A stretch of 64,000 bases of DNA, from assembly GCF_002159625.1 (NCBI RefSeq), contig NZ_NFIZ01000013.1:1-64000 (forward strand), written 5' to 3'. Of this stretch, positions 10,507-50,011 are shown in pieces. Each line of letters begins with the position of its first letter. Position 1 is the stretch's first letter. The position numbers were made by a program, and so were the translations under genes. The stretch comes from Olsenella sp. An285 (GTDB lineage: Bacteria; Actinomycetota; Coriobacteriia; Coriobacteriales; Atopobiaceae). The notes under the pieces are model-generated. The model made no database searches and was not told the DNA's origin. It was given only the letters and a program-made list of their open reading frames with translations.

Positions 10507-11316
10507 CTATTCCTCGTCGGACTCCGCAATCTGGATGTAGACGGCGGAAAGCAGCGCGAAGACGTACGCCTGGATGGCGGCGACCATGATCTCGACCACG
10601 TAGATGACGAGCAGGATGCCCACCCAGAGCACGGACGCGCCCGCCTGCACGGCGGTGGCGAGGGAGAACGCCTCGATCATGGGCTCGAAGAACAGCGACG
10701 CGAGAATCGCGAAGGTGCCCATGACGACGTGGCCGGCGAAGAGGTTGCAGAAGAGTCGCACGGCCAGCGTGATGAGGCGCAGGATGGTCGAGAAGACCTC
10801 GATGAGCCACACGAGGGCGTTGAGCGGGAAGGCGACGCCCGCCGGAGCGAGGCTCTTGGCGTAACCGAGCGCGCCGTGCTTCTTGACGCCGCAGACGATG
10901 AAGTAGACGAACGAGCAGATGGCGAGGGCCGCCGTCGTGGAGATGGTGCCCGTGCCGGGCTTGCAGCCCGGGATGATGCCCACGATGTTGTTGACAAGCA
11001 CCACGAGGAAGATCGTGGCGATGAACGGGAAGTGGCGCTTCCAGGACTCACCGAGCAGGCCCTTGCACATGTCGTCGCGGACGAACTCGACGACGTACTC
11101 GACGCCGTTCACGAACGTGCCCTGGGGCACGAGGCTTGCCGCCTGCTTCTTCTTGAAGATGAAGAGCAAGACGAGAAGCAGGATGACGGCGACCGCAAAC
11201 CAGAACGAGTACTGCGTGAAGCCAAAAGAGTCGAGGCTGCCGACGATGGGCTGCGAGGTGAAGCTCGCTACCAGCTCGTTGACCTCCTCGCCCAGGCTGT
11301 CCAGAGGATTGCCCAC
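10507..11316 (-). CDS. atpB: ATP synthase F0 a subunit
   Basis: This stator subunit forms the proton half-channels. A GTG start at 11316, preceded by AAAGGA, gives 269 aa. The essential arginine lies in the TLAVRLFCNLFAGH helix, and the C-terminal helix is intact (VQAYVFALL-like region, AIQAYVFALLSAVYI). Several membrane helices are evident. A run of three lysines (IFKKKQ) ends the first helix. It lies 103 bp upstream of atpE. Confidence 0.93.
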   Translation of the reverse strand: MGNPLDSLGEEVNELVASFTSQPIVGSLDSFGFTQYSFWFAVAVILLLVLLFIFKKKQAASLVPQGTFVNGVEYVVEFVRDDMCKGLLGESWKRHFPFIATIFLVVLVNNIVGIIPGCKPGTGTISTTAALAICSFVYFIVCGVKKHGALGYAKSLAPAGVAFPLNALVWLIEVFSTILRLITLAVRLFCNLFAGHVVMGTFAILASLFFEPMIEAFSLATAVQAGASVLWVGILLVIYVVEIMVAAIQAYVFALLSAVYIQIAESDEE

Positions 11317-11336
11317 GCTATGTCCTTTCCCCCCGG

Positions 11337-11624
11337 CTAGGCCCTGCCGTTGGCAGCGCGCCAGCCCCTCACCGCCTCGACCGCCCAGAAGAGCAGGAAC
11401 GAGCCGACCATCGCACAACCGAACTCGAGGAATCCGGCGTTCGTGGCAGTGTACACCACGAGCAGGACGGCCGTGAGCGTGAGGAGCGACATCCCAACCG
11501 CGGCGATGCCGGCGGCGAGGCTGACGCTCCCTCCCCTCAGGACGCGCTCGTAGAGGGCAGCCGGGGCAACGCACCCCATGAGCCCGAAGAGCGCTCCGAA
11601 GACGATGGCAACCGGAAGGTCCAT
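11337..11624 (-). CDS. atpI: AtpI-like small membrane protein
   Basis: A 95-aa protein begins MDLPVAIVFGALFGLMG and has three to four hydrophobic segments. It lies 20 bp upstream of atpB, where a small AtpI-type protein (proposed c-ring assembly or Mg uptake factor) is normally found. The identity rests on position and topology, because this family is poorly conserved. The start at 11624 was chosen over longer in-frame options, which would precede the first membrane helix with a poor sequence. Confidence 0.6.
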   Translation of the reverse strand: MDLPVAIVFGALFGLMGCVAPAALYERVLRGGSVSLAAGIAAVGMSLLTLTAVLLVVYTATNAGFLEFGCAMVGSFLLFWAVEAVRGWRAANGRA

Positions 11625-11739
11625 GTCACCGTCTCCCGTCCGTGCGATATAGAAACACGAGAAGTCTAGAGCAACCGTCAGAAACGTCAAGGGGACGCGA
11701 GCGCGCCCCCCATTCGACATAAAGACAAGATAAAGACGT

Positions 11740-11785
11740 GGGACAGGGGGACGGGGGCTTTGTCACAGCTCCATCCCCCTGTCCC
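11740..11785. repeat. Intergenic inverted repeat (GGGGAC family)
   Basis: Perfect 12-bp arms GGGACAGGGGGA and TCCCCCTGTCCC flank a 22-nt loop that contains TTTGTCAC. It begins right after the upp stop codon region (upp ends at 11792) and may end the upp transcript. There is no U run. It belongs to the dispersed family seen throughout the window. Confidence 0.85.
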
Positions 11786-11791
11786 GCAATG

Positions 11792-12439
11792 CTACTTGGT
11801 GCCGTAGATGCGGTCGCCGGCGTCTCCCAGGCCCGGCAGGATGTAGGCGCGCTCGTTGAGGCAGCGGTCGAGCGAGCAGGTGTAGAGGCGCACGTCCGGA
11901 TCAAAGTCCAGCACCGTGCGCACGCCCTCGGGGGCGGAGACGAGAGTGAGGCAGCGGATGTCGCGCACGCCGGCCTCGCGCAGGAACTGGATGGCGGCGG
12001 TGAGCGAGCCGCCCGTGGCGAGCATGGGATCGACCACGAGGCACGTGCGGCTCTGGATGTCTTCCGGGAACTTGCAGTAGTACTGGTGCGGCTCGTGCGT
12101 CACCTCGTCGCGATACATTCCCACGTGCCCCACCTTCGCCGACGGGACGAGCTGGAGGATGCCGTCCACCATGCCCAGGCCAGCGCGCAGGATGGGGATG
12201 ATGGCGACCGTCTTGCCGGAGACGCGCTTGCACGTCGTGGTCTCGAGCGGAGTCTCCACCTCCACGTCCTCGAGCGGGAAGTCGCGCATGGCCTCGTAGC
12301 CCTCGAAGATGGCGAGCTCGGTCACGAGCTCGCGGAACTGCTTGGTACCGGTGCTCTTGTCACGCAGGATGTGCAGCTTGTGCTGCACGAGAGGGTGGTC
12401 GATGACCGTGAAGCGGCTCGGGTCGAACTCTTCTGCCAT
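11792..12439 (-). CDS. upp: Uracil phosphoribosyltransferase
   Basis: Upp salvages uracil to UMP with PRPP. The 215-aa protein has the PRPP loop [17 protein letters not shown] and the uracil-binding C-terminal [22 protein letters not shown] is also conserved. It lies downstream of glyA with only a family repeat between them, so co-transcription is possible unless the repeat terminates. Confidence 0.96.
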
Positions 12440-12455
12440 TGGGGTCTCCTTTCTT

Positions 12456-12500
12456 GTGACGGGGGACGAAGCGGTGACAGAGCCTCCGTCCCCCAGTCAC
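12456..12500. repeat. Intergenic inverted repeat between glyA and upp
   Basis: The left arm GTGACGGGGGACG pairs with the right arm CGTCCCCCAGTCAC with one bulge; the loop carries a second GTGACAG. The 45-bp unit lies 9 bp from the glyA stop and 16 bp from the upp start, nearly filling the gap. Confidence 0.82.
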
Positions 12501-12509
12501 GATCTGGAC

Positions 12510-13763
12510 CTACAACTCGGGGTAGAGGGGGTGGGCGGCGAGGAGCTCGCGCACCTCGAGGGCGGTGCGGTCGGCGAGCTGCTCGTTGTCGACGTTGGTC
12601 ACGACGTCGCCGATGAGCTGACCGATGCGCTCGCACTCCTGCTCGGAGAAGCCGCGCGTCGTGGCGGCGGCGGAGCCCACGCGAATGCCGCTCGTGACAA
12701 AGGGCGAGCGCCTCTCCCCGGGGATGGTGTTCTTGTTGACGGTGATGCCCACCGCGTCGAGCGCGCGCTCGGCGTCGCGCCCGGTGACCTCGCCGGCAGG
12801 CGTGAGGTCGACGAGCAGCAGGTGGTTGTCCGTGCCACCGGAGACCAGGCGCAGGCCGCGGGACTCCATGCCGCGTCCAAGCGCCTTGGCGTTGGCGAGG
12901 ATGGCATCCGCGTAGTCCGCGAACTCCGGCCTCAGCGCCTCGCCAAAGGCAACGGCCTTGCCGGCGATCACGTGCTCGAGCGGGCCGCCCTGGCTTCCGG
13001 GGAACACCGCGGAGTCGAGCCGCTTTGCGATCTCCGGGTCGTTGGAGAGGATGAGGCCGCCACGCGGTCCGCGCAGGGTCTTGTGCGTGGTCGTGGTGGT
13101 CACGTCCGCGCAGGGGACCGGCGAGGGGTGGCGCCCCGTGGCCACGAGGCCGGCGATGTGCGCCATGTCCACCATGAGATAGGCGCCCACGGAATGAGCG
13201 ATCTCCGCAAAGCGCTCGAAGTCGATGGTGCGGGGGTAGGCGGAGGCTCCGGCGATGATGACCTTGGGCTTCTCTGCCTGAGCGAGCGCCGCGACGGCAT
13301 CGTAGTCTATGCGCTCGGTCTGGGCGTCGACGCCGTAGGAGACGATCCGGTAGAGCTTGCCGGAGAAGTTTGCCGGCGAACCATGCGTGAGGTGCCCGCC
13401 GTTGTCGAGCGCCATGCCCATGACCGTGTCGCCGGGCTGGGCGAGGGCGGCGAGGGCGGCGTAGTTTGCCTGCGCCCCGGAGTGCGGCTGCACGTTGGCA
13501 AAGCCGGCGCCAAAGAGCTTCTTCGCGCGGTCGCGAGCGAGGTTCTCCGCCTCGTCGACCGCCCAGCAGCCCCCGTAGTAGCGCTTGCCGGGGAGGCCCT
13601 CCGCGTACTTGTTGGTAAGGGGCGAGCCCACCGCCTCCAGAACGGCCATCGAGACGAAGTTCTCCGAGGCAATGAGCTCGATGGAGGAACGCTGCCGGCG
13701 GAGCTCGTCGTCAATGGCCGAGAAGACCTCGGGGTCGGACTCTCTCAGGTGCTCGCAGAACAT
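12510..13763 (-). CDS. glyA: Serine hydroxymethyltransferase
   Basis: GlyA converts serine and tetrahydrofolate to glycine and methylene-THF using PLP. The 417-aa protein has [12 protein letters not shown] near the N-terminus, RYYGGC, and the PLP lysine in [14 protein letters not shown]. The length is standard. The folP-folK fusion 7 kb away supplies the cofactor pathway. Confidence 0.97.
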
Positions 13764-13787
13764 GGGAACCCCCTCTTCTTTGAAAGG

Positions 13788-13835
13788 AGCCCGCCCTCGG
13801 CGGGCGCGCGAGGTGCTGCATCATAAATGTAGCAC
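13788..13835 (-). promoter_or_regulatory. glyA leader with two inverted repeats
   Basis: Upstream of glyA a GCCCGCC/GGCGGGC hairpin (13788-13804) is followed by an inverted repeat GTGCTGCAT...ATGTAGCAC (13813-13835). The second contains TTTATGATG, which could serve as a -10 region on the minus strand. It may be an operator or leader hairpin; it does not match the tetrahydrofolate riboswitch core as I remember it. Confidence 0.35.
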
Positions 13836-13921
13836 GGAGCGCGAGGCGCCCCTCCTCCCCGATTTGCGGACGACGCAATCTGGAAGCGAGCGAGAAACAC
13901 TCGGGTCGCGACCGGCGCGGG

Positions 13922-14569
13922 CTAGGCTCCCGCAGCGAGAAGAACCTCGGCCTCGGAAATGGCGCCCTCGCGCAGCACGCGCGGAAGCGCCCCCGTGGCG
14001 TCCACGATGGTCGAGGCGACGCCCACCGTGGCAGGGCCCGCGTCCACCACAAGGTCGACCGCCTCCGCGACGGCGGGCTCGAGGCTCGCCCCGGAGGTGG
14101 CGGAGGGGGCGCCGTGGACGTTGGCGCTCGTCTGGGCGACGGGGCACCCAAGGGCGCGCACGATGGCGCGGTCGAGCTCGGACCCGGGTACGCGCAGCGC
14201 GATGGTGCCCCCTCCCGGAGCTGGCTGCGCATACTCCGCGGGCACGAGATCGGACGCCCGCACCACCAGCGTGAGCGCGCCGGGCCAGTAGCGCTCGGCC
14301 AGCCGGAGCGCCCATGCGGGGACATCCTTTCCGTAGAGGGCCAGGTCGGACGCATCCGCCACGAACCACGGAAGCGTCTGCGCCCTGTCGCGCCTCTTGA
14401 CCTCGAAGATTCGCTCGTGCCCCGGGTTGTTCGGAGTCGCGGCGCAGCAGATGCCGTAGACGGAGTCCGTGGGGAGCACGGCCACACCGCCGCTCCCGAG
14501 GCTCCGCGCCACGCGATCGACCAGCAGGGGGTCTGCGGCGTCAAGGCCGTCTGCGAACAGGATTTCCAC
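13922..14569 (-). CDS. tsaC: Threonylcarbamoyl-AMP synthase (YrdC/Sua5 family)
   Basis: This protein makes the threonylcarbamoyl adenylate used for the t6A37 tRNA modification. The 215-aa product from GTG 14569 has the family core: VAVLPTDSVYGICC near the start, RDRAQTLPWFV, the WPGALTLVV motif and PVAQTSANVHG. Its AGGAGG lies in the last codons of prmC and the GTG is 2 bp past the prmC stop, so translation is coupled. Confidence 0.9.
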   Translation of the reverse strand: MEILFADGLDAADPLLVDRVARSLGSGGVAVLPTDSVYGICCAATPNNPGHERIFEVKRRDRAQTLPWFVADASDLALYGKDVPAWALRLAERYWPGALTLVVRASDLVPAEYAQPAPGGGTIALRVPGSELDRAIVRALGCPVAQTSANVHGAPSATSGASLEPAVAEAVDLVVDAGPATVGVASTIVDATGALPRVLREGAISEAEVLLAAGA

Positions 14570-14571
14570 GG

Positions 14572-15507
14572 CTACTCCTCCTTGTCCAGCGCGCGCCTTG
14601 CCACGAGGACGCGAGGCCTGTGCGTGAGGTCCTCGCGGATCTCCACGGAGGCCCAACCGTCGCGCTCCCGAACGAGCGCGGCGGCGTCTTCGAGCGAGCC
14701 CTCGAAGAGCTCGACGCAGAGCATGCCGCCCGCCTCGAGGGCGGCGGGCGCCAGGTCGAGCAGGCGGCGGAACACGTCCAGCCCGTCCTCCCCGCCGTCG
14801 AGCGCAAGCTCGGGCTCGAAGTCTGCCACCTCGGCCGGGACCTCCTCGCGAAGCACGCGCGTGGGGATGTAGGGAGGGTTGGACACGAGCACGGAGAAGC
14901 CCCCCATGAGCTCAGGATCCACCCCCTCGGCGAGGTCGCACTCCACGATGTCGACGGCATCCTCGAGCCCGAGCGCCTCACGGTTGCGCGTGGCGAGCTC
15001 CACGGCGCGCTCGGAGAGATCGGTGGCGGTCACGTGCGTTCCGGGGCGCTCGGAGGCAACGGAGAGCGCGATGCAGCCGGTGCCGGTGCCCACCTCGAGC
15101 ACGCGCACGCACCTCTGGGCCTCGCCCTCCGTCGCGCCGCCCCCCTGGCGGGCCAGCGCCTCGTCCACCCCCTCGAGGGCGGCGTCAACGAGAATCTCCG
15201 TCTCTGGCCGCGGGATGAGCACGCCGCGCTCGCAGCGCAGCACGATGTGGCGGAACGGCATCTCGCCGGTCACGTACTGCAGGGGCTCGCCGGACGCGCG
15301 CCGTTCGATGGCCGCGTGCATGGCAGCGAGCTCGTCTGCCTCCAGCGGCTTGTCAAAGTTGACGTAGAGCTCCACGCGCGAGAGCCCGCAGACGTTGGCG
15401 AGCAGCCACTCGGCAGAGAGCCGAGGATGCTCGTCGCCCTTGCGCTCGAGGTAGCCGCTCGTCCAGTCGAGCACGCGCTTGATTGTCCAGAGGTCACCGC
15501 GCGACAT
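14572..15507 (-). CDS. prmC: Release factor glutamine methyltransferase
   Basis: PrmC methylates the GGQ glutamine of release factors using SAM. The protein has an N-terminal helical domain, LEVGTGTGCIALS (SAM loop) and the catalytic NPPYIP motif at about two thirds. I chose the second ATG (15507) because GGAGG lies 6 nt before it; the first ATG (15513) sits directly on that sequence. It follows prfA, its substrate gene, after the palindromic element. Confidence 0.93.
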   Translation of the reverse strand: MSRGDLWTIKRVLDWTSGYLERKGDEHPRLSAEWLLANVCGLSRVELYVNFDKPLEADELAAMHAAIERRASGEPLQYVTGEMPFRHIVLRCERGVLIPRPETEILVDAALEGVDEALARQGGGATEGEAQRCVRVLEVGTGTGCIALSVASERPGTHVTATDLSERAVELATRNREALGLEDAVDIVECDLAEGVDPELMGGFSVLVSNPPYIPTRVLREEVPAEVADFEPELALDGGEDGLDVFRRLLDLAPAALEAGGMLCVELFEGSLEDAAALVRERDGWASVEIREDLTHRPRVLVARRALDKEE

Positions 15508-26011: not shown

Positions 26012-26040
26012 CATGACAAAGGGACTGTCCCCTTGTCATG
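26012..26040. repeat. Intergenic inverted repeat overlapping a stop codon
   Basis: CATGACAAAGGG faces CCCCTTGTCATG across ACTGT. The TGA stop of the aminotransferase (26036-26038) lies inside the right arm, so this copy supplies a stop codon. It ends the aminotransferase and lies 20 bp upstream of the PHP gene on the same strand. Confidence 0.88.
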
Positions 26041-44470: not shown

Positions 44471-45190
44471 CTATCCCACCAAAATCGGCTCCGCGGCGAG
44501 CGCGTGCGCGATCACGAGGGCCCGGACGGCGGGCAGCTCCGCGAGGGAATGCGGCCAGGTGGCGACGTCAAGGCCGGCGCCCTCGAGCCGCGCGCGCAGG
44601 TCCACCAGCACGTCATGGCGGGCATGATGGCCAAGAGCCATGAGGAAGGGGCCAAGAAGGACCCGCCGCCCGGGACACCCCCGCAGGCGCGCCACCAGAC
44701 GGTCGGGCGCGTCCACCAGCACGTCGTCCCGACCGCGGGCGTTCAGCGCGGCCTCCAGCCGGGCGAGGGCGGCCTCGAGCTCGGCGCCGCGATGGCCCGC
44801 CAACGCCACGATGCGCCCGGGCTCCGCGGGCAGCACGGCATCGAGCGCACGGGCAACGACAGCCAGGTCCTCGGCGCTCGCGAGCAGGGGCGGAGCAAGC
44901 CGAAGCTCGTCAAAGGTGGTCGCGGTATCGCGCAGCGCGCCCGTCGCCTCGTGCTGCAGGCGGCCGTCGGCCACGTGCGTGGTTGCCACGAGCGCCCGCC
45001 GCACCCCTCGCTCGCGCACATTCGCCAGCACCTCGGGCAGCAAGGCGCCCACAGGTCGCCCGCCCGTGCGGGCGCGCAGGACAACGTCGGCACCGATCGC
45101 GTCCGTCAGCGCATCAACCAGGGCAGCAATGCCCTCGTCCCCACGCTCTCCGGAAAGGCACCCAGCTATGACAAGCACATAACGTGACAA
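44471..45190 (-). CDS. CbiK-like chelatase-family protein, divergent
   Basis: The 239-aa protein follows the plan of the anaerobic cobaltochelatase CbiK: RALVATTHVADGRLQHEA near residue 70, APPLLASAEDL, and a second half with LLGPFLMALGHHARHDVLVDL that matches the CbiK metal-binding helix. The HGTEH active-site segment of CbiK reads LAGHRGAEL here, so one ligand region differs. CbiK/SirB enzymes insert Co or Fe into sirohydrochlorin. TTG 45190 lies in a repeat; GTG 45178 is an alternative. Neighbours are a NifX-like gene and a siroheme-domain flavoprotein. Confidence 0.55.
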   Translation of the reverse strand: MSRYVLVIAGCLSGERGDEGIAALVDALTDAIGADVVLRARTGGRPVGALLPEVLANVRERGVRRALVATTHVADGRLQHEATGALRDTATTFDELRLAPPLLASAEDLAVVARALDAVLPAEPGRIVALAGHRGAELEAALARLEAALNARGRDDVLVDAPDRLVARLRGCPGRRVLLGPFLMALGHHARHDVLVDLRARLEGAGLDVATWPHSLAELPAVRALVIAHALAAEPILVG

Positions 45191-45209
45191 AGGGACTGTC
45201 CCCCTGTCA
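45185..45209. repeat. Intergenic inverted repeat, operon-internal copy
   Basis: TGACAAAGGG and CCCCCTGTCA face each other across ACTGT. It fills the gap between the NifX-like stop (45211) and the chelatase start, and overlaps the TTG start at 45190, so its AGGGGG could act as the ribosome site. Confidence 0.85.
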
Positions 45210-45210
45210 A

Positions 45211-45573
45211 CTAGTGATGGCAGGCGTGCTCCTCGCCCATGACGGGAAGGGTGCCGGCGGCGGCCATCTGAGCGACGTCGCCCACGCCCGGGGTCTGGTT
45301 CTCAAAGAAGACGGTGATGCCCGCCTGCGCAAAGCCCATCATGGGGCGCATGCCCATGCCGGCGGCAACGATGGCGTCGATGCCGTTCTGGGCAAGAAGG
45401 GCCACGGGGCGCATGCAGCCGCCCTCCTCGTGGGGCGGGTTGTCGATGACGCTCACGGCACCGACCTTGCCGTCCTCGACGTCAACCACGGTAAAGCAGT
45501 CGCAGTGGCCAAAGTGGCCGGAGCGCTCGCAGTCCAGACCGCCCTTGCCAAGGGTGGGGATGGCAACCTTCAT
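45211..45573 (-). CDS. NifX/NifB-associated (dinitrogenase Fe-Mo cofactor) family protein
   Basis: The 120-aa protein (MKVAIPTLGKGGLDCERSGHFG; GAGGAG upstream) has the family fold found in NifX, NafY and MTH1175-type proteins, which carry metal clusters. Likely ligands are CERSGHFGHCDCF near the start, MGMRPMMGF, and a His/Cys tail (EEHACHH). No nif genes are nearby. In anaerobes such stand-alone members are thought to handle Fe-S or metal-sulfur intermediates. Confidence 0.85.
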   Translation of the reverse strand: MKVAIPTLGKGGLDCERSGHFGHCDCFTVVDVEDGKVGAVSVIDNPPHEEGGCMRPVALLAQNGIDAIVAAGMGMRPMMGFAQAGITVFFENQTPGVGDVAQMAAAGTLPVMGEEHACHH

Positions 45574-45762
45574 GGGATTCTCCTCTCGCTGCGGGCGGAG
45601 CTCCAGCCGGCCCGCGGTGTTTGACGAGGTCATTCTAGCCCACCGGCCGGGACAAATCCCTCACCGCTGTCGCAAATCCCAAGAGGACGGGACCCGCAAG
45701 GGCCTACCATGGTGTTATGCGCGCCGCGAAGTCGGCGCAAGACTGCCAGGAGAGGGGCGCCC
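45574..45762. promoter_or_regulatory. Divergent intergenic region, sulfur locus
   Basis: The 189-bp gap separates the divergent NifX-like and flavoprotein genes, so it should hold both promoters. A weak GCCGGCCCG/CGGGACAAA pattern occurs, but I see no clear -10/-35 pair or dyad. CCAGGAGAGGG before 45763 is the ribosome site of the flavoprotein. Confidence 0.4.
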
Positions 45763-48342
45763 ATGAGGTACCTGATTGTTGGCGGCGTTGCCGCCGGAAC
45801 CAAGGTCGCGGCCAAGCTCAAGCGCTGCGACCGTTCGGCCGAGGTCGTGGTTGTCACCAAGAGCGAGGACATCAGCTACGCGGGCTGCGGCCTGCCCTAC
45901 TACATTGGCGGCGACATCCAGACCCGCGGCGAGCTCATCGTCAACACGCCGGCTGCCTACGAGGGCCTCACCGGCGTCGAGGTGCGCACGGGTACGGAGG
46001 CGGTGGCGCTCGACGCGAGCGCCCACGAGGTCACGGTGCGCGAGAAGGACGGCACGTCCCATGCCGAGAAGTACGACAAGCTGGTCATAGCCACCGGCGC
46101 CTCGCCGATCGTGCCCGCGAGCATCCCCGGCACGGACCTGCCGGGCGTCTTCACCGTGCGCACCCCGGACGACGCCGAGGCCATCCGCAGCTACGCCGAG
46201 GCCGGCGCGCGCCGCGCCGTGGTGGTGGGCGCGGGCTTCATCGGCCTGGAGGTCGCCGAGAACCTGCTCGCGAGAGGTCTCTCCGTCACCGTCATAGACG
46301 CGATGCCGCAGATCATGCCCAACGTCTTTGACGCCGAGATGGCCGGCTTCGCCCAGCGCCAGCTCAAGGCAGCCGGCGTGCGCGTGATGACGTCCTGTCC
46401 GCTGGCGGCCATCAAGGGCGACGGCAAGGTCGAGGGCGTGGAGACCGGCACGGGAACGCTGCCGGCAGACCTTGTAATCCTCTCCATCGGCATCCGGCCC
46501 AACACCGCGTGGCTCGAGGGCTCCGGCGTGGAGCTCGACCACGGCTGCGTGGTGGTGGACGAGCTCTCCGCCACCAACCTGCCGGACGTCTACGCCGCCG
46601 GCGACTGCGCCGAGGTGCGCAGCGCCATCACCGGCCAGCCGCAGTGGAGCGCCATGGGGTCGACCGCCAACATCGCCGGACGCGCGCTCGCCCGCACGCT
46701 CACGGGCACGCCCACCGCGTACCCCGGCGTACTGGGCACCGGCGTCGTGCGCCTGCTCCCCACGCTCAACGGCGGGCGCACCGGCCTCACGGAGGCCGCG
46801 GCGCGCGAGGCGGGCATGGACCCCGTGAGCATCGTCTGCGTGGTTGACGACAAGGCGCACTACTACCCCGGCTCCTCGAGCTTCTTCATCAAGCTGATCG
46901 CCGAGCGCGCGACGCACCGCCTGCTGGGCGTGCAGGTGCTCGGCGCCGGCGCGGTGGACAAGGTGGTAGACGTGGTGGTAGCCGCGCTCTACCAGAAGCT
47001 CGCCGTCGAGGACCTCGACCTGATGGACCTCTCCTACGCGCCGCCCTTCTCGACCGCCATCCACCCGCTGGTCACGGCCGGCTACATCCTGGAGAACAAG
47101 CTCGCGGGCGAGCTCGAGAGCTTCACGCCCGCCGAGTACGCCGCCGGCGCCGCGTCCGACTACGCGGTGATCGACGTGCTGCCTGTGGCCACAATCCCCG
47201 GCGCGGAGTGGGTGGACCTCACCAAGATCGGCCCGGACGGCCTGCCCGGCCACACCAAGGACGAGAAGCTCCTGCTGGTATGCGCCAAGGGCAAGCGCGG
47301 CTACTTCGCGCAGAACCGCCTCAAGGCCGCGGGCTACACGGCGACGCGCGTGCTCGAGGGCGGCGTGACGTTCAACGAGGTCAAGGTGCCGCGCCCGGCC
47401 GGAGCCAAGCTCCCCGCAGCAGAGATCAAGCGTCTCAAGGGTCTGGGATGCCTGCAGGACAAGCGCTATGACGACGTCTTCAACATCCGCGTGATCACGC
47501 GCAACGGCAAGCTGACCTCGGCCGAGCAGAAGGTCGTGGCCGAGGCCGCAGAGCGCTTTGGCTCCGGCGAGGTCACGATGACCACGCGCCTCACGCTGGA
47601 AATCCAGGGCGTGAAGTACGAAAACATCGATGCGTGCATCGCCTTCCTGCAGGACGCGGGGCTCGACGCCGGCGGCACCGGCTCCAAGGTGCGCCCGGTG
47701 GTGAGCTGCAAGGGCACCACGTGCCAGTACGGCCTCATCGACACCTTCGACCTCTCCGAGAAGCTGCACGAGCGCTTCTACGTGGGGTACCACGGCGTGG
47801 AGCTGCCGCACAAGTTCAAGATCGCGGTGGGCGGCTGCCCCAACATGTGCGTCAAGCCCGACCTCAACGACCTCGGCATCGTCGGGCAGCGCGTGCCGCA
47901 GATCGATCTCGAGAAGTGCCGCGCATGCAAGGTCTGCCAGGTCGTGAAGGCCTGCCCCATGGGCGACGCCCAGATCGGGCCGGACGGCAAGATCACCATC
48001 GACGACTCCGCCTGCAACCACTGCGGCCGCTGCGTGGGCGCCTGCCCGTTTGGCGCCGTGACCGAGGGGCTCGCAGGTTACAAGGCCTACATCGGCGGGC
48101 GCTGGGGCAAAAAGACGGCTCACGGGCGCGCGCTGGACAAGATCTTCACCACGGAGGACGAGGTCATGGACGTGGTGGAGCGCGCCATCCTCTTCTTCCG
48201 CGACGAGGGCCAGAGCGGCGAGCGCTTTGCCGACACCGTGACGCGCCTCGGTTTTGACTACGTGCAGGAGAAGCTGCTGACGGCGCCCATCGACAAGGAG
48301 GCCATCCTCAACAAGAACGTAGTTGGCGGCGCCACCTGCTAA
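45763..48342 (+). CDS. CoA-disulfide reductase - rhodanese - sulfite reductase - ferredoxin fusion
   Basis: One 859-aa polypeptide joins four modules. Residues 1-450: FAD/NAD flavoprotein of the CoA-disulfide reductase/NADH:persulfide class (MRYLIVGGVAAGTKVA, redox Cys42 in YAGCGLPYY, VVVGAGFIGLE). About 450-545: rhodanese with Cys507 in VCAKGKRG. About 570-700: sulfite/nitrite reductase domain with Cys649 and Cys654 (SCKGTTC) and Cys692 and Cys696 (GGCPNMC), the siroheme-4Fe4S pattern. About 710-770: two 4Fe4S clusters (CRACKVCQVVKACP, CNHCGRCVGACP). It could pass NADH electrons to persulfide, sulfite or polysulfide. The first Cys pair is C-x4-C, one residue shorter than the C-x5-C I remember for siroheme enzymes. 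Confidence 0.85.
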   Translation: MRYLIVGGVAAGTKVAAKLKRCDRSAEVVVVTKSEDISYAGCGLPYYIGGDIQTRGELIVNTPAAYEGLTGVEVRTGTEAVALDASAHEVTVREKDGTSHAEKYDKLVIATGASPIVPASIPGTDLPGVFTVRTPDDAEAIRSYAEAGARRAVVVGAGFIGLEVAENLLARGLSVTVIDAMPQIMPNVFDAEMAGFAQRQLKAAGVRVMTSCPLAAIKGDGKVEGVETGTGTLPADLVILSIGIRPNTAWLEGSGVELDHGCVVVDELSATNLPDVYAAGDCAEVRSAITGQPQWSAMGSTANIAGRALARTLTGTPTAYPGVLGTGVVRLLPTLNGGRTGLTEAAAREAGMDPVSIVCVVDDKAHYYPGSSSFFIKLIAERATHRLLGVQVLGAGAVDKVVDVVVAALYQKLAVEDLDLMDLSYAPPFSTAIHPLVTAGYILENKLAGELESFTPAEYAAGAASDYAVIDVLPVATIPGAEWVDLTKIGPDGLPGHTKDEKLLLVCAKGKRGYFAQNRLKAAGYTATRVLEGGVTFNEVKVPRPAGAKLPAAEIKRLKGLGCLQDKRYDDVFNIRVITRNGKLTSAEQKVVAEAAERFGSGEVTMTTRLTLEIQGVKYENIDACIAFLQDAGLDAGGTGSKVRPVVSCKGTTCQYGLIDTFDLSEKLHERFYVGYHGVELPHKFKIAVGGCPNMCVKPDLNDLGIVGQRVPQIDLEKCRACKVCQVVKACPMGDAQIGPDGKITIDDSACNHCGRCVGACPFGAVTEGLAGYKAYIGGRWGKKTAHGRALDKIFTTEDEVMDVVERAILFFRDEGQSGERFADTVTRLGFDYVQEKLLTAPIDKEAILNKNVVGGATC

Positions 48343-48343
48343 C

Positions 48344-48370
48344 TTGACAAGGGGACAGTCCCTTTGTCAA
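48344..48370. repeat. Intergenic inverted repeat after the flavoprotein
   Basis: TTGACAAGGGGAC and GTCCCTTTGTCAA pair across A with one offset. It begins 2 bp after the TAA stop of the fusion gene. Confidence 0.88.
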
Positions 48371-48670: not shown

Positions 48671-50011
48671 CTACGACTCTCTCAGCATAAACATTGTCAT
48701 GTATATTGGCAGGTAGGTAACCTTGCCATCGTGCTCGACGTTTCTCTCGCAGAGGACGCATGCGTGGTCGAGACCGTAGTTCTCAACTCCGAGCACCCTC
48801 GTAAGCGCGCTATGCCGCTTGTAGGTCTTTCCGGACTTGACCTCTATGGGCAGGACCCTCCCCCCGGGCCATTCAGCGAGGAAATCCAGCTCTCCCATCT
48901 TTCGGCTTCGGAAGTAATAGAGGTGCCTGTCGGGAGACGGCGAGCAAAGCCCATGCGCGACGAGCTCCTGTGCCACGTAGTTCTCGTATATTGATCCGTA
49001 GTTGACGTCCTCCCTGCTGAAAAGCAGATCCCTGACGACCTCCATTCCACACGCGCGCGCAAGAAGCCCCACGTCGGACATGAAGAGCTTGAAGTACGAT
49101 GCATTCGTCGAAAGCTCGAGCGGGTACCGAGGCTCTGCAACATTTTGTGTCGAAAGGGCCACGCCCGCATCCACGAGCCAGGAGAAATCATTGTCGTATC
49201 TGTCGAAGCGCGGCGTGCCTTCGATGTGAGACGCGATGAAGCGCTTGCTCTGGGTGTTGAGTTCCGCAGGCACGAGGTCGAACACGCGTCGCACAACGCG
49301 CGCCCGGTTCCCAGCGTATTTGCTGATGTCGCGACGATAAAGATTGATGATGTCGTTCTGTATGCGCTGAACGCGCCTGAGGTCGTTGCTTTCCACATAC
49401 GCCTGGACTGCGTCCGGCATCCCCCCGACAACTAGGTAGACGTGAAGCGTCTGCAACAACCTTGCGTGCACAAACTCGTCGACGGAGCGAATCCGCTCAA
49501 AGGCGGCTCGCACCTCTGCGATGACGGCGTCCGCAACCCCCTGAGCCCAGCAAAACTCCTCGAAGTCGAGGGGGAACATCTCGACCTCGCTCAGATACCC
49601 AACGGGCATGGAGCGGATATCCTTGAGCTCCACTCCCAGCAACGAGCCAGAGATCACGAAATCAAAGTCCTTGCCATAGCGGTCTACCAGGAACTTGAGA
49701 GCAGTGACAATCTCGGGGCACTCCTGTGCCTCGTCGATGAACACAAGTGTCTCGCCAGGAACCAGATCGTCTTTCGCGAAGGCGGTGATGCGAAGAAATA
49801 GAGTTGCCGCGTCCGGCGCGCTAGCAAGGGCATCTCGGAAGTCGGGTTGCTCAATGAGATTCAGCTCTACGAAATGTCTGTAGCATTCGCGCGCGAACTG
49901 CCTAATGAGATAGGTCTTTCCGACCTGGCGAGCGCCTGTGACAAGAAGGGCTTGGGACGTCTTGAGGCGCTTCCACTCCTTCATGGCTTCGAGTGCTTTT
50001 CTCCGCAGCAA
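48671..50011 (-). CDS. AAA ATPase with DUF4143 domain
   Basis: The 446-aa protein (TTG 50011, GAGG 7 nt upstream) has the AAA_14 ATPase (Walker A GARQVGKTYL, Walker B LVFIDEAQECPE) and a C-terminal DUF4143 domain with ELDFLAEWPGGRVLPIEVKSGK, a restriction-endonuclease-like D...E-V-K pattern. Such single-gene proteins are very common in gut bacteria and may act as accessory, possibly defence or toxin-like, factors. GC is lower than in the core genes. A 33-bp-period array lies upstream. Confidence 0.88.
   Translation of the reverse strand: MLRRKALEAMKEWKRLKTSQALLVTGARQVGKTYLIRQFARECYRHFVELNLIEQPDFRDALASAPDAATLFLRITAFAKDDLVPGETLVFIDEAQECPEIVTALKFLVDRYGKDFDFVISGSLLGVELKDIRSMPVGYLSEVEMFPLDFEEFCWAQGVADAVIAEVRAAFERIRSVDEFVHARLLQTLHVYLVVGGMPDAVQAYVESNDLRRVQRIQNDIINLYRRDISKYAGNRARVVRRVFDLVPAELNTQSKRFIASHIEGTPRFDRYDNDFSWLVDAGVALSTQNVAEPRYPLELSTNASYFKLFMSDVGLLARACGMEVVRDLLFSREDVNYGSIYENYVAQELVAHGLCSPSPDRHLYYFRSRKMGELDFLAEWPGGRVLPIEVKSGKTYKRHSALTRVLGVENYGLDHACVLCERNVEHDGKVTYLPIYMTMFMLRES

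Follow-up and report, generated by a model that had tools for sequence, protein, structure and literature searches.

The window analyzed here comprises positions 1 to 64,000 of contig NZ_NFIZ01000013.1 from Olsenella sp. An285, a member of the Coriobacteriia. A gene on its forward strand (45763-48342) encodes a protein of 859 amino acids (aa), herein referred to as the fusion, in which a CoA-persulfide reductase (flavoprotein plus rhodanese) is joined to a siroheme-type sulfite-reductase (SiR) domain with an inserted pair of [4Fe-4S] sites. Residues 1-450 (45763-47112) form the FAD- and NADH-type CoA-disulfide/persulfide reductase module with the redox cysteine Cys42. They are followed by the rhodanese domain (residues ~455-537, 47125-47373), with Cys507 in the loop CAKGKRG, and by the SiR domain (residues 556-859, 47428-48339), which contains R576, R609, R644, K684, and K686 as well as the cluster cysteines Cys649, 654, 692, and 696. 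The ferredoxin inserted into the latter domain (residues 717-763, 47911-48051) has two [4Fe-4S] sites, formed by Cys719, 722, 725, and 731 and by Cys751, 754, 757, and 761. Translation probably starts at the ATG at 45763. The open frame extends further upstream to 877 aa, and this longer version was used for the profile scans and for the alignment with the CoA-persulfide reductase (CoAPR) structure 8a56. The fusion is a new combination of known parts, a CoAPR-like unit and a siroheme-type sulfite reductase in one chain.

The four modules proposed in an earlier sequence-only reading of this DNA, for a protein of the same length, were all recovered by the Pfam search. Pyr_redox_2 and Pyr_redox_dim matched with 210 and 53 bits, respectively, and Fer4 models matched as well. 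The C-terminal part scored above the cut-offs of both NIR_SIR_ferr (46.8 bits) and NIR_SIR (101.3 bits). The rhodanese match was borderline, with 22.1 bits vs. a cut-off of 22.2, and reached 25.1 bits in the genome search. The fusion is outside the AsrC, Fsr, NirB, and CoA-disulfide-reductase equivalogs. Its scores were below the cut-offs for AsrC (TIGR02912, 105.1 vs. 324.1 bits), NirB (TIGR02374, 226 vs. 578 bits), and both models for CoA-disulfide reductases (NF007123, 380 vs. 458 bits; TIGR03385, 368 vs. 579 bits). The Pfam families listed for the fusion scan (25 of 38) include no BFD domain.

An AlphaFold model of the whole chain, made with an alignment of collected homologues, had a pLDDT of 83 and CoAPR as its top Foldseek match (TMt 0.90). 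The flavoprotein and rhodanese part was collinear with CoAPR 8a56 up to about residue 536, a fold match of ~540 columns. All 50 whole-chain matches shown were flavoprotein structures, with or without rhodanese, and the C-terminal domain was therefore modeled separately. The top match of this second model (pLDDT 90.8) was Fsr (TMq 0.80), followed by DsrA/B, NirA, and aSiR, and all 44 matches with E ≤ 0.001 were siroheme sulfite or nitrite reductases. The siroheme/ferredoxin-type fold claimed earlier for this part is thus borne out by structure prediction.

Cys42, Cys507, R512, the four cluster cysteines, and all eight ferredoxin cysteines were invariant in the 42 aligned fusions, and Cys507, 649, 654, 692, and 696 stand exactly where the sequence-only reading had placed them. 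R576, R609, R644, K684, and K686 were likewise invariant; their alignment equivalents in MjFsr are R355, R388, R423, K460, and K462. Passages of the MjFsr study describe R355, R423, K460, and K462 as binding sulfite and conserved across sulfite reductases, and R388 as an assimilatory trait (PMC10229431). The same passages give CX5C-Xn-CX3C as the canonical cluster motif of sulfite reductases, whereas all 42 fusions have CX4C-Xn-CX3C, so the siroheme-type cysteines are present but their spacing is not the usual one. CX5C was found in nine of the ten non-fusion relatives compared; the tenth, a Dsr-like protein, aligned another residue to the first cysteine. By the tested features, the C-terminal part belongs to the sulfite-reductase family, with a single motif that departs from the canonical form.

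Several known systems resemble parts of the fusion. Its flavoprotein and rhodanese are collinear with CoAPR, CoADR-RHD, and Npsr (8a56, 3icr, 6pfz, 3ntd) over ~540 columns, with 31-35% identity and TMt of 0.86-0.90. CoAPR is defined by a CoADR fold, a rhodanese, and two catalytic cysteines, all of which the fusion has (C42 and C507). According to passages of the CoAPR study, both cysteines (C42 and C508) are catalytically required, and that of the rhodanese is persulfidated in cells (PMC9405070). Unlike CoAPR, the fusion carries an extra siroheme-type SiR domain of 300 residues. This domain resembles the C-terminal half of Fsr (7np8, 7npa) in the inserted ferredoxin, the sulfite-binding residues, and the assimilatory Arg; it differs by CX4C in place of CX5C, by the missing F420H2-oxidase half, and by the preceding NADH flavoprotein, which belongs to another family. 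NirB, the NADH-dependent nitrite reductase, also combines an NADH flavoprotein and a siroheme domain in one chain and works in the way proposed here for the fusion. Instead of a BFD domain, not seen among the families shown, the fusion has a rhodanese and a redox cysteine, and its score is below the NirB cut-off. AsrC has a similar Dsr-type SiR domain with ferredoxin and belongs to asrABC, an NADH-dependent system. In the fusion, AsrA and AsrB are replaced by the fused CoAPR, the motif is CX4C, and the AsrC cut-off is not reached. Thiosulfate reduction by a rhodanese and Asr was proposed for Halanaerobium, and passages of that report describe the same two steps, the splitting of thiosulfate by rhodanese and the reduction of sulfite by a siroheme enzyme, for separate proteins rather than for one polypeptide as here (PMC5497025). 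Among the matches listed of the literature searches, no title or abstract start mentioned a fusion of CoA-disulfide reductase, rhodanese, and sulfite reductase.

The SiR-domain query matched 98 of the 396 genomes of the class, and the fusion itself was found in 40 of them, with matches 85-100% identical inside open frames of at least 867 codons. These carriers are 25 of the 26 genomes of the window's genus and 15 genomes of a second family with the contig names Collinsella and Enorma. All 859 residues aligned in the 20 carriers that were fetched with wide flanks. A scan of GTDB contigs revealed 298 loci with a relative of the fusion. The best 80 of these, which were kept, belong to Coriobacteriia and, with 64-70% identity along the entire chain, to Lachnospiraceae, Oscillospiraceae, and related Clostridia of the gut, and 78 of the 80 cover at least 857 of the 859 residues with at least 64% identity, in two phyla. 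The nearest named matches of the window were Olsenella, Thermophilibacter, and Atopobiaceae. The fusion and the two genes upstream of it, nifX and cbiK, are under purifying selection, with dN/dS values against 12 congeners of 0.17-0.28 for the fusion, 0.01-0.18 for NifX, and 0.23-0.35 for CbiK. Genome G351 (fusion locus L031) has two in-frame TGA codons in the fusion and one in its ABC binding protein, reflecting decay, sequence error, or recoding.

We infer that the modules could act as one electron chain, which would make the fusion a cytoplasmic sulfide-forming enzyme with two active sites. FAD would be reduced by NADH, and sulfane sulfur on Cys507 or on CoA would be reduced to HS- at Cys42 in the CoA-persulfide-reductase half. 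The pair of [4Fe-4S] sites in the insert would also conduct electrons to a siroheme-[4Fe-4S] center, where sulfite would be reduced to HS- with six electrons. Since rhodaneses can cleave thiosulfate to sulfite and a persulfide, a single chain could convert thiosulfate fully to two HS-.

The two halves might instead share no electrons: NADH would detoxify persulfides in the CoAPR half, free ferredoxin would feed the SiR half, and the fusion would only keep both sulfide-forming steps together. The N-terminal half indeed retains both catalytic cysteines of CoAPR, and the closest relatives of its SiR domain found as separate proteins in the class (34-40% identical, located beside genes that look assimilatory by eye) are single-domain proteins that must be fed externally. 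However, the [4Fe-4S] insert suggests coupling, the nearly complete length is conserved in 78 of the 80 kept loci across two phyla, and in NirB the siroheme is fed from flavin within one chain. Passages on Fsr describe the same for that enzyme (PMC10229431). An enzyme without internal sharing therefore appears rather unlikely.

The substrate of the SiR half has to be considered as well. Siroheme reductases often accept both nitrite and sulfite, and nitrite or another compound could be the physiological substrate of the fusion, with siroheme as cofactor. This is in line with the match to the NirB model and with CX4C, unseen in the ten non-fusion relatives. On the other hand, the sulfite-binding residues and the assimilatory Arg are all invariant, and the persulfide-reductase partner points to sulfur. 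Moreover, a LysR regulator located beside the fusion in Clostridia scored on the model of the sulfite sensor YeiE, which was among its best models, although with 95 bits vs. a cut-off of 480. We thus consider a substrate other than sulfite quite improbable.

Upstream of the fusion, on the opposite strand, the window contains genes for a NifX-like protein (45211-45573, PF02579, 120 aa, probable start at the ATG at 45573) and a CbiK-like chelatase (44471-45190, PF06180, ~239 aa, TTG start uncertain). Their Pfam scores were 66.5 bits vs. a cut-off of 26.3 and 43.7 bits vs. a cut-off of 26.2, respectively. The stretch that separates nifX from the divergently oriented fusion (45574-45762) may be a shared control region. 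The sequence-only reading had put both genes divergently next to the fusion, within 45211-48342; both are present and nifX is divergent, but cbiK lies outside this interval and on the same strand as nifX. The CbiK-like protein matched 1qgo with E 9e-8 and scored 40 bits on the sirohydrochlorin cobaltochelatase equivalog NF047852, below its cut-off of 400.

Both genes adjoin the fusion in all 12 congener loci with wide flanks. Their expected co-occurrence with the fusion in relatives thus holds for the genus but becomes sparser outside it: in the eight loci of the second family CbiK was matched in four and NifX in one, and in Clostridia CbiK was found in one of 44 loci (L125). Beyond the genus, the fusion is accompanied by a LysR regulator, by an ABC importer, or by genes of siroheme synthesis. 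A divergent LysR gene was found by tblastn in 22 of the 44 Clostridial loci (e.g., L128 7023-7850, L119, L123-L125). Simple gene calls were unreliable in GC-rich loci, and codon-usage scoring and tblastn were used instead; the former still missed some genes, including cbiK of the window.

A link of NifX and CbiK with siroheme supply, also suggested by the sequence-only reading, was found in the congener G281. In its locus (L136), the fusion is followed by a row of divergent genes for NifX, an amino-acid permease, CbiK-SirC, HemC, CobA-HemD, YfcE, and DnaK, the last two as in the window. Thus, the window locus is a shrunken form of an L136-type siroheme locus, from which the permease, SirC, HemC, and CobA-HemD are gone while NifX and CbiK remain. 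In the second family, six of the eight loci with wide flanks (L044-L051) also have genes similar to sirC, hemC, or cobA-hemD near the fusion, as have two Clostridial loci (L117 and L123) with cysG-hemD. The fusion is therefore tied to siroheme by genome context. Different states of the locus were observed: HemC, CobA-HemD, SirC, and CbiK; SirC and CbiK (e.g., L044); or CbiK alone. Two loci (L140 and L141) keep SirC and CobA-HemD with no CbiK match, so genes were not lost strictly from the upstream end.

No match for HemB (ALAD), HemC, or SUMT was found in the genome of the window, which is 95% complete. CbiK alone therefore cannot supply siroheme, and the complete unit with its own cofactor supply envisaged by the sequence-only reading was rejected for this genome. 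HemC is missing in 36 of the 40 carriers of the class and present in G050, G116, G261, and G281. HemB was found in none of the 41 genomes searched, the four HemC-bearing carriers included; as a positive control, the same model matched in 28 of the 44 Clostridial carriers and in 11 of 14 control genomes. SUMT was matched at full strength (best E ≤ 1e-42) in eight of the 41 genomes. The window genome is the only one of the 41 without any PF00590 match, while each of the remaining 40 gave one, if only a weaker and presumably RsmI-like one; the 95%-complete assembly therefore lacks some genes. In Clostridia, HemC was found in 33 of the 44 carriers and is missing in 11. Six of the 33 have HemC without HemB, so draft gaps or salvage of early steps must be common and the picture is not all-or-none.

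The loss of HemC in most class carriers and the change to CX4C would both agree with an SiR half that has become a relic without siroheme in HemC-less species. However, Clostridia that retain HemC also have CX4C, none of the catalytic residues varies, and dN/dS stays at 0.17-0.28 in a mostly HemC-less genus, which makes a relic very unlikely. A host without the early siroheme pathway would have to import siroheme or a late precursor, and most likely a FecCD-type ABC importer would be used. NifX and CbiK would then be remains of a siroheme locus, with CbiK probably inserting iron into imported sirohydrochlorin. A related case is the salvage of cobamide precursors: passages of a study on it report the use of external ALA by bacteria without early tetrapyrrole steps, with three species tested (PMC6461909). 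There, ALA serves cobamides, while here a late precursor or siroheme itself would serve a sulfite reductase.

Candidate importers were found near the fusion. A cassette of binding protein, FecCD permease, and ATPase adjoins the fusion in 8 of the 11 Clostridia that lack HemC vs. 0 of the 33 that have it (Fisher p 9e-7, which is overstated, as is the p value given below, since related genomes are not independent). This search was done by tblastn with ten binding-protein and permease queries and by inspection of gene rows; in L127 the binding protein is only partly on the contig, the contig of L124 breaks off within the permease gene, and the flanks of several HemC-bearing loci are short. The row in L125 runs fusion, CbiK, binding protein, permease, ATPase, all on one strand. 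A cassette of another type, herein L152-type, is located directly downstream of the fusion in the class genomes G279 and G165, the contig of the latter ending after the permease. The L152-type binding protein was found in 35 of the 36 HemC-less and in none of the four HemC-bearing class carriers (Fisher p 5e-5). The window genome also has it, on contig C23 (locus L152), unlinked to the fusion, and this cassette would be the importer there.

The four HemC-bearing class carriers have another candidate. In these HemB-less genomes (G281, L136 7766-12891, and also G261, G050, and G116), hemC, cobA-hemD, and cbiK-sirC lie beside the amino-acid permease gene, which was found in all four of these loci and in no other locus scanned. 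A Fisher value for this permease was discarded, as it presumed that all 36 HemC-less carriers had been covered, whereas flanks were fetched for part of them. These genomes would need external porphobilinogen, and the linked permease is a possible importer of it.

Similar cassettes accompany other siroheme enzymes. Among 20 loci with asrABC or a stand-alone SiR, chosen from the non-fusion matches of the window's family, a related binding protein and a FecCD permease were found in 15, on the same strand within ~7 kb, including 14 of the 18 loci from HemC-less and one of the two from HemC-bearing genomes. In L188 an extra gene is inserted between binding protein and permease. Among the five loci without the cassette, the related binding protein is encoded elsewhere in G110 and G200 and near the second sulfite-reductase gene in G096. 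CbiK is in the row in 8 of the 20 loci (Pfam CbiK 142 bits in L195). In L195, cbiK and the genes for binding protein, FecCD, and ATPase lie in a row (10970-14657) downstream of a stand-alone sulfite reductase, and L196 and L197 have the same arrangement by tblastn. In the binding-protein tree, the fusion-linked proteins of Clostridia form a weakly supported group (81/71) with those linked to asr or SiR; given the very long branches of the E. coli rows, the tree is a hint only. Of the 396 class genomes, 82 encode this related binding protein (A3-type), many of them from a family that is probably Eggerthellaceae (f2) and none of them the window genome; the protein is thus not exclusive. In five f2 genomes (G009, G030, G070, G138, G175), it is encoded ~6-8 kb from hemC, hinting at a general tetrapyrrole role. 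In total, three kinds of siroheme enzymes are repeatedly accompanied by an importer of the siderophore/heme/B12 class, and partly by CbiK, in cells seemingly unable to make siroheme.

Transporters of the PF01497/FecCD type carry siderophores, heme, and B12. The cassettes and CbiK may thus serve the acquisition of iron or heme, with the CbiK-like protein as a de-chelatase, or the uptake of cobamides, and would be located near siroheme enzymes as these need iron, while siroheme is obtained by another route. BtuC is the best model for the cassette permease, IsdE matches a Clostridial binding protein weakly (41 bits), the L152-type binding protein occurs in 57 genomes without the fusion, and the A3-type one in 82 class genomes. 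The repeated linkage with the fusion, AsrC, and stand-alone SiR and the anti-correlation with HemC speak against such a role, and import of heme or cobamide would leave the source of siroheme in HemC-less cells unexplained. We regard this explanation as possible but less convincing than siroheme import. The preferred reading, an NADH-driven sulfite and persulfide (perhaps also thiosulfate) reductase supplied with siroheme or a late precursor by import, appears on balance probable.

A number of observations weigh against this reading. No flavoprotein of the CoA-disulfide-reductase type is known to us to pass electrons to Fe-S clusters. The step from FAD to the clusters may therefore need another partner, and the unexplained CX4C could alter the cluster. 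Both His ligands of the metal site, which we take to be His, Glu, and His in the 1qgo family, are kept in all 24 CbiK rows, but the Glu position is variable. CbiK is missing in some second-family loci and accompanies the cassette in only one of the eight Clostridial cassette loci. The cassette is missing from three HemC-less loci of Clostridia (L093, L102, L109), and HemB is present in G436 (L127) although HemC is not. Among the asrABC and SiR loci, the HemC-bearing G114 has the cassette beside asrABC, and 4 of the 18 HemC-less loci have none. G195, assembled as one contig and 99% complete, has the fusion, NifX, and CbiK but neither HemC nor the L152-type binding protein nor a FecCD permease. 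G351 was counted among the 35 genomes with the L152-type protein, although its match contains a TGA and no FecCD permease was found. Since 57 of the 356 fusion-less genomes also encode the L152-type protein, it may carry a cargo other than siroheme, and siroheme specificity was dropped as a firm claim. The BtuC-like permease and the overstated p values add to these points, and absence from draft genomes, including the 95%-complete genome of the window, is no proof.

Surveys of gut hydrogen sulfide usually rely on counts of dsrAB and asrABC, and passages of one of them present these two as the enzymes able to perform the last step (PMC9016944). The fusion is a further, widespread candidate. If its host is unable to synthesize siroheme, its sulfide output would hinge on a cofactor from other members of the community. 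A phrase search of the available paper collection found no paper on siroheme uptake, transport, import, or scavenging, and no title or abstract start among the matches listed of wider searches concerned siroheme salvage. Siroheme import, if shown, would be new, and candidate importers are named here. As a broader and more tentative proposal, which we consider less likely than not, siroheme or sirohydrochlorin may be traded in the gut: many Coriobacteriia and some Clostridia would have given up siroheme synthesis and run their siroheme sulfite reductases (the fusion, AsrABC, or stand-alone SiR) on a FecCD-imported cofactor, partly with iron insertion by CbiK, and the fusion would be a one-chain thiosulfate-to-sulfide reductase.

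Some further features of the locus were observed. A gene for an ATPase with AAA_14 and DUF4143 domains (48671-50011, reverse strand) is located directly downstream of the fusion. In all eight congener loci displayed (L033, L034, L037, L039-L043), a gene of ~0.8 kb, absent in the window, lies between the fusion and nifX; by its motif it presumably encodes a HAD-like hydrolase. A near-palindromic repeat (TGACAAAGGGACTGTCCC...) was found in the window at 26014-26039, 45185-45210, and 48344-48369, the last two copies flanking the nifX-fusion pair. This repeat is abundant in the genome, with 99 matches with at most two mismatches (48 and 51 per strand, palindromic copies being counted twice) vs. 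none for the reversed control.

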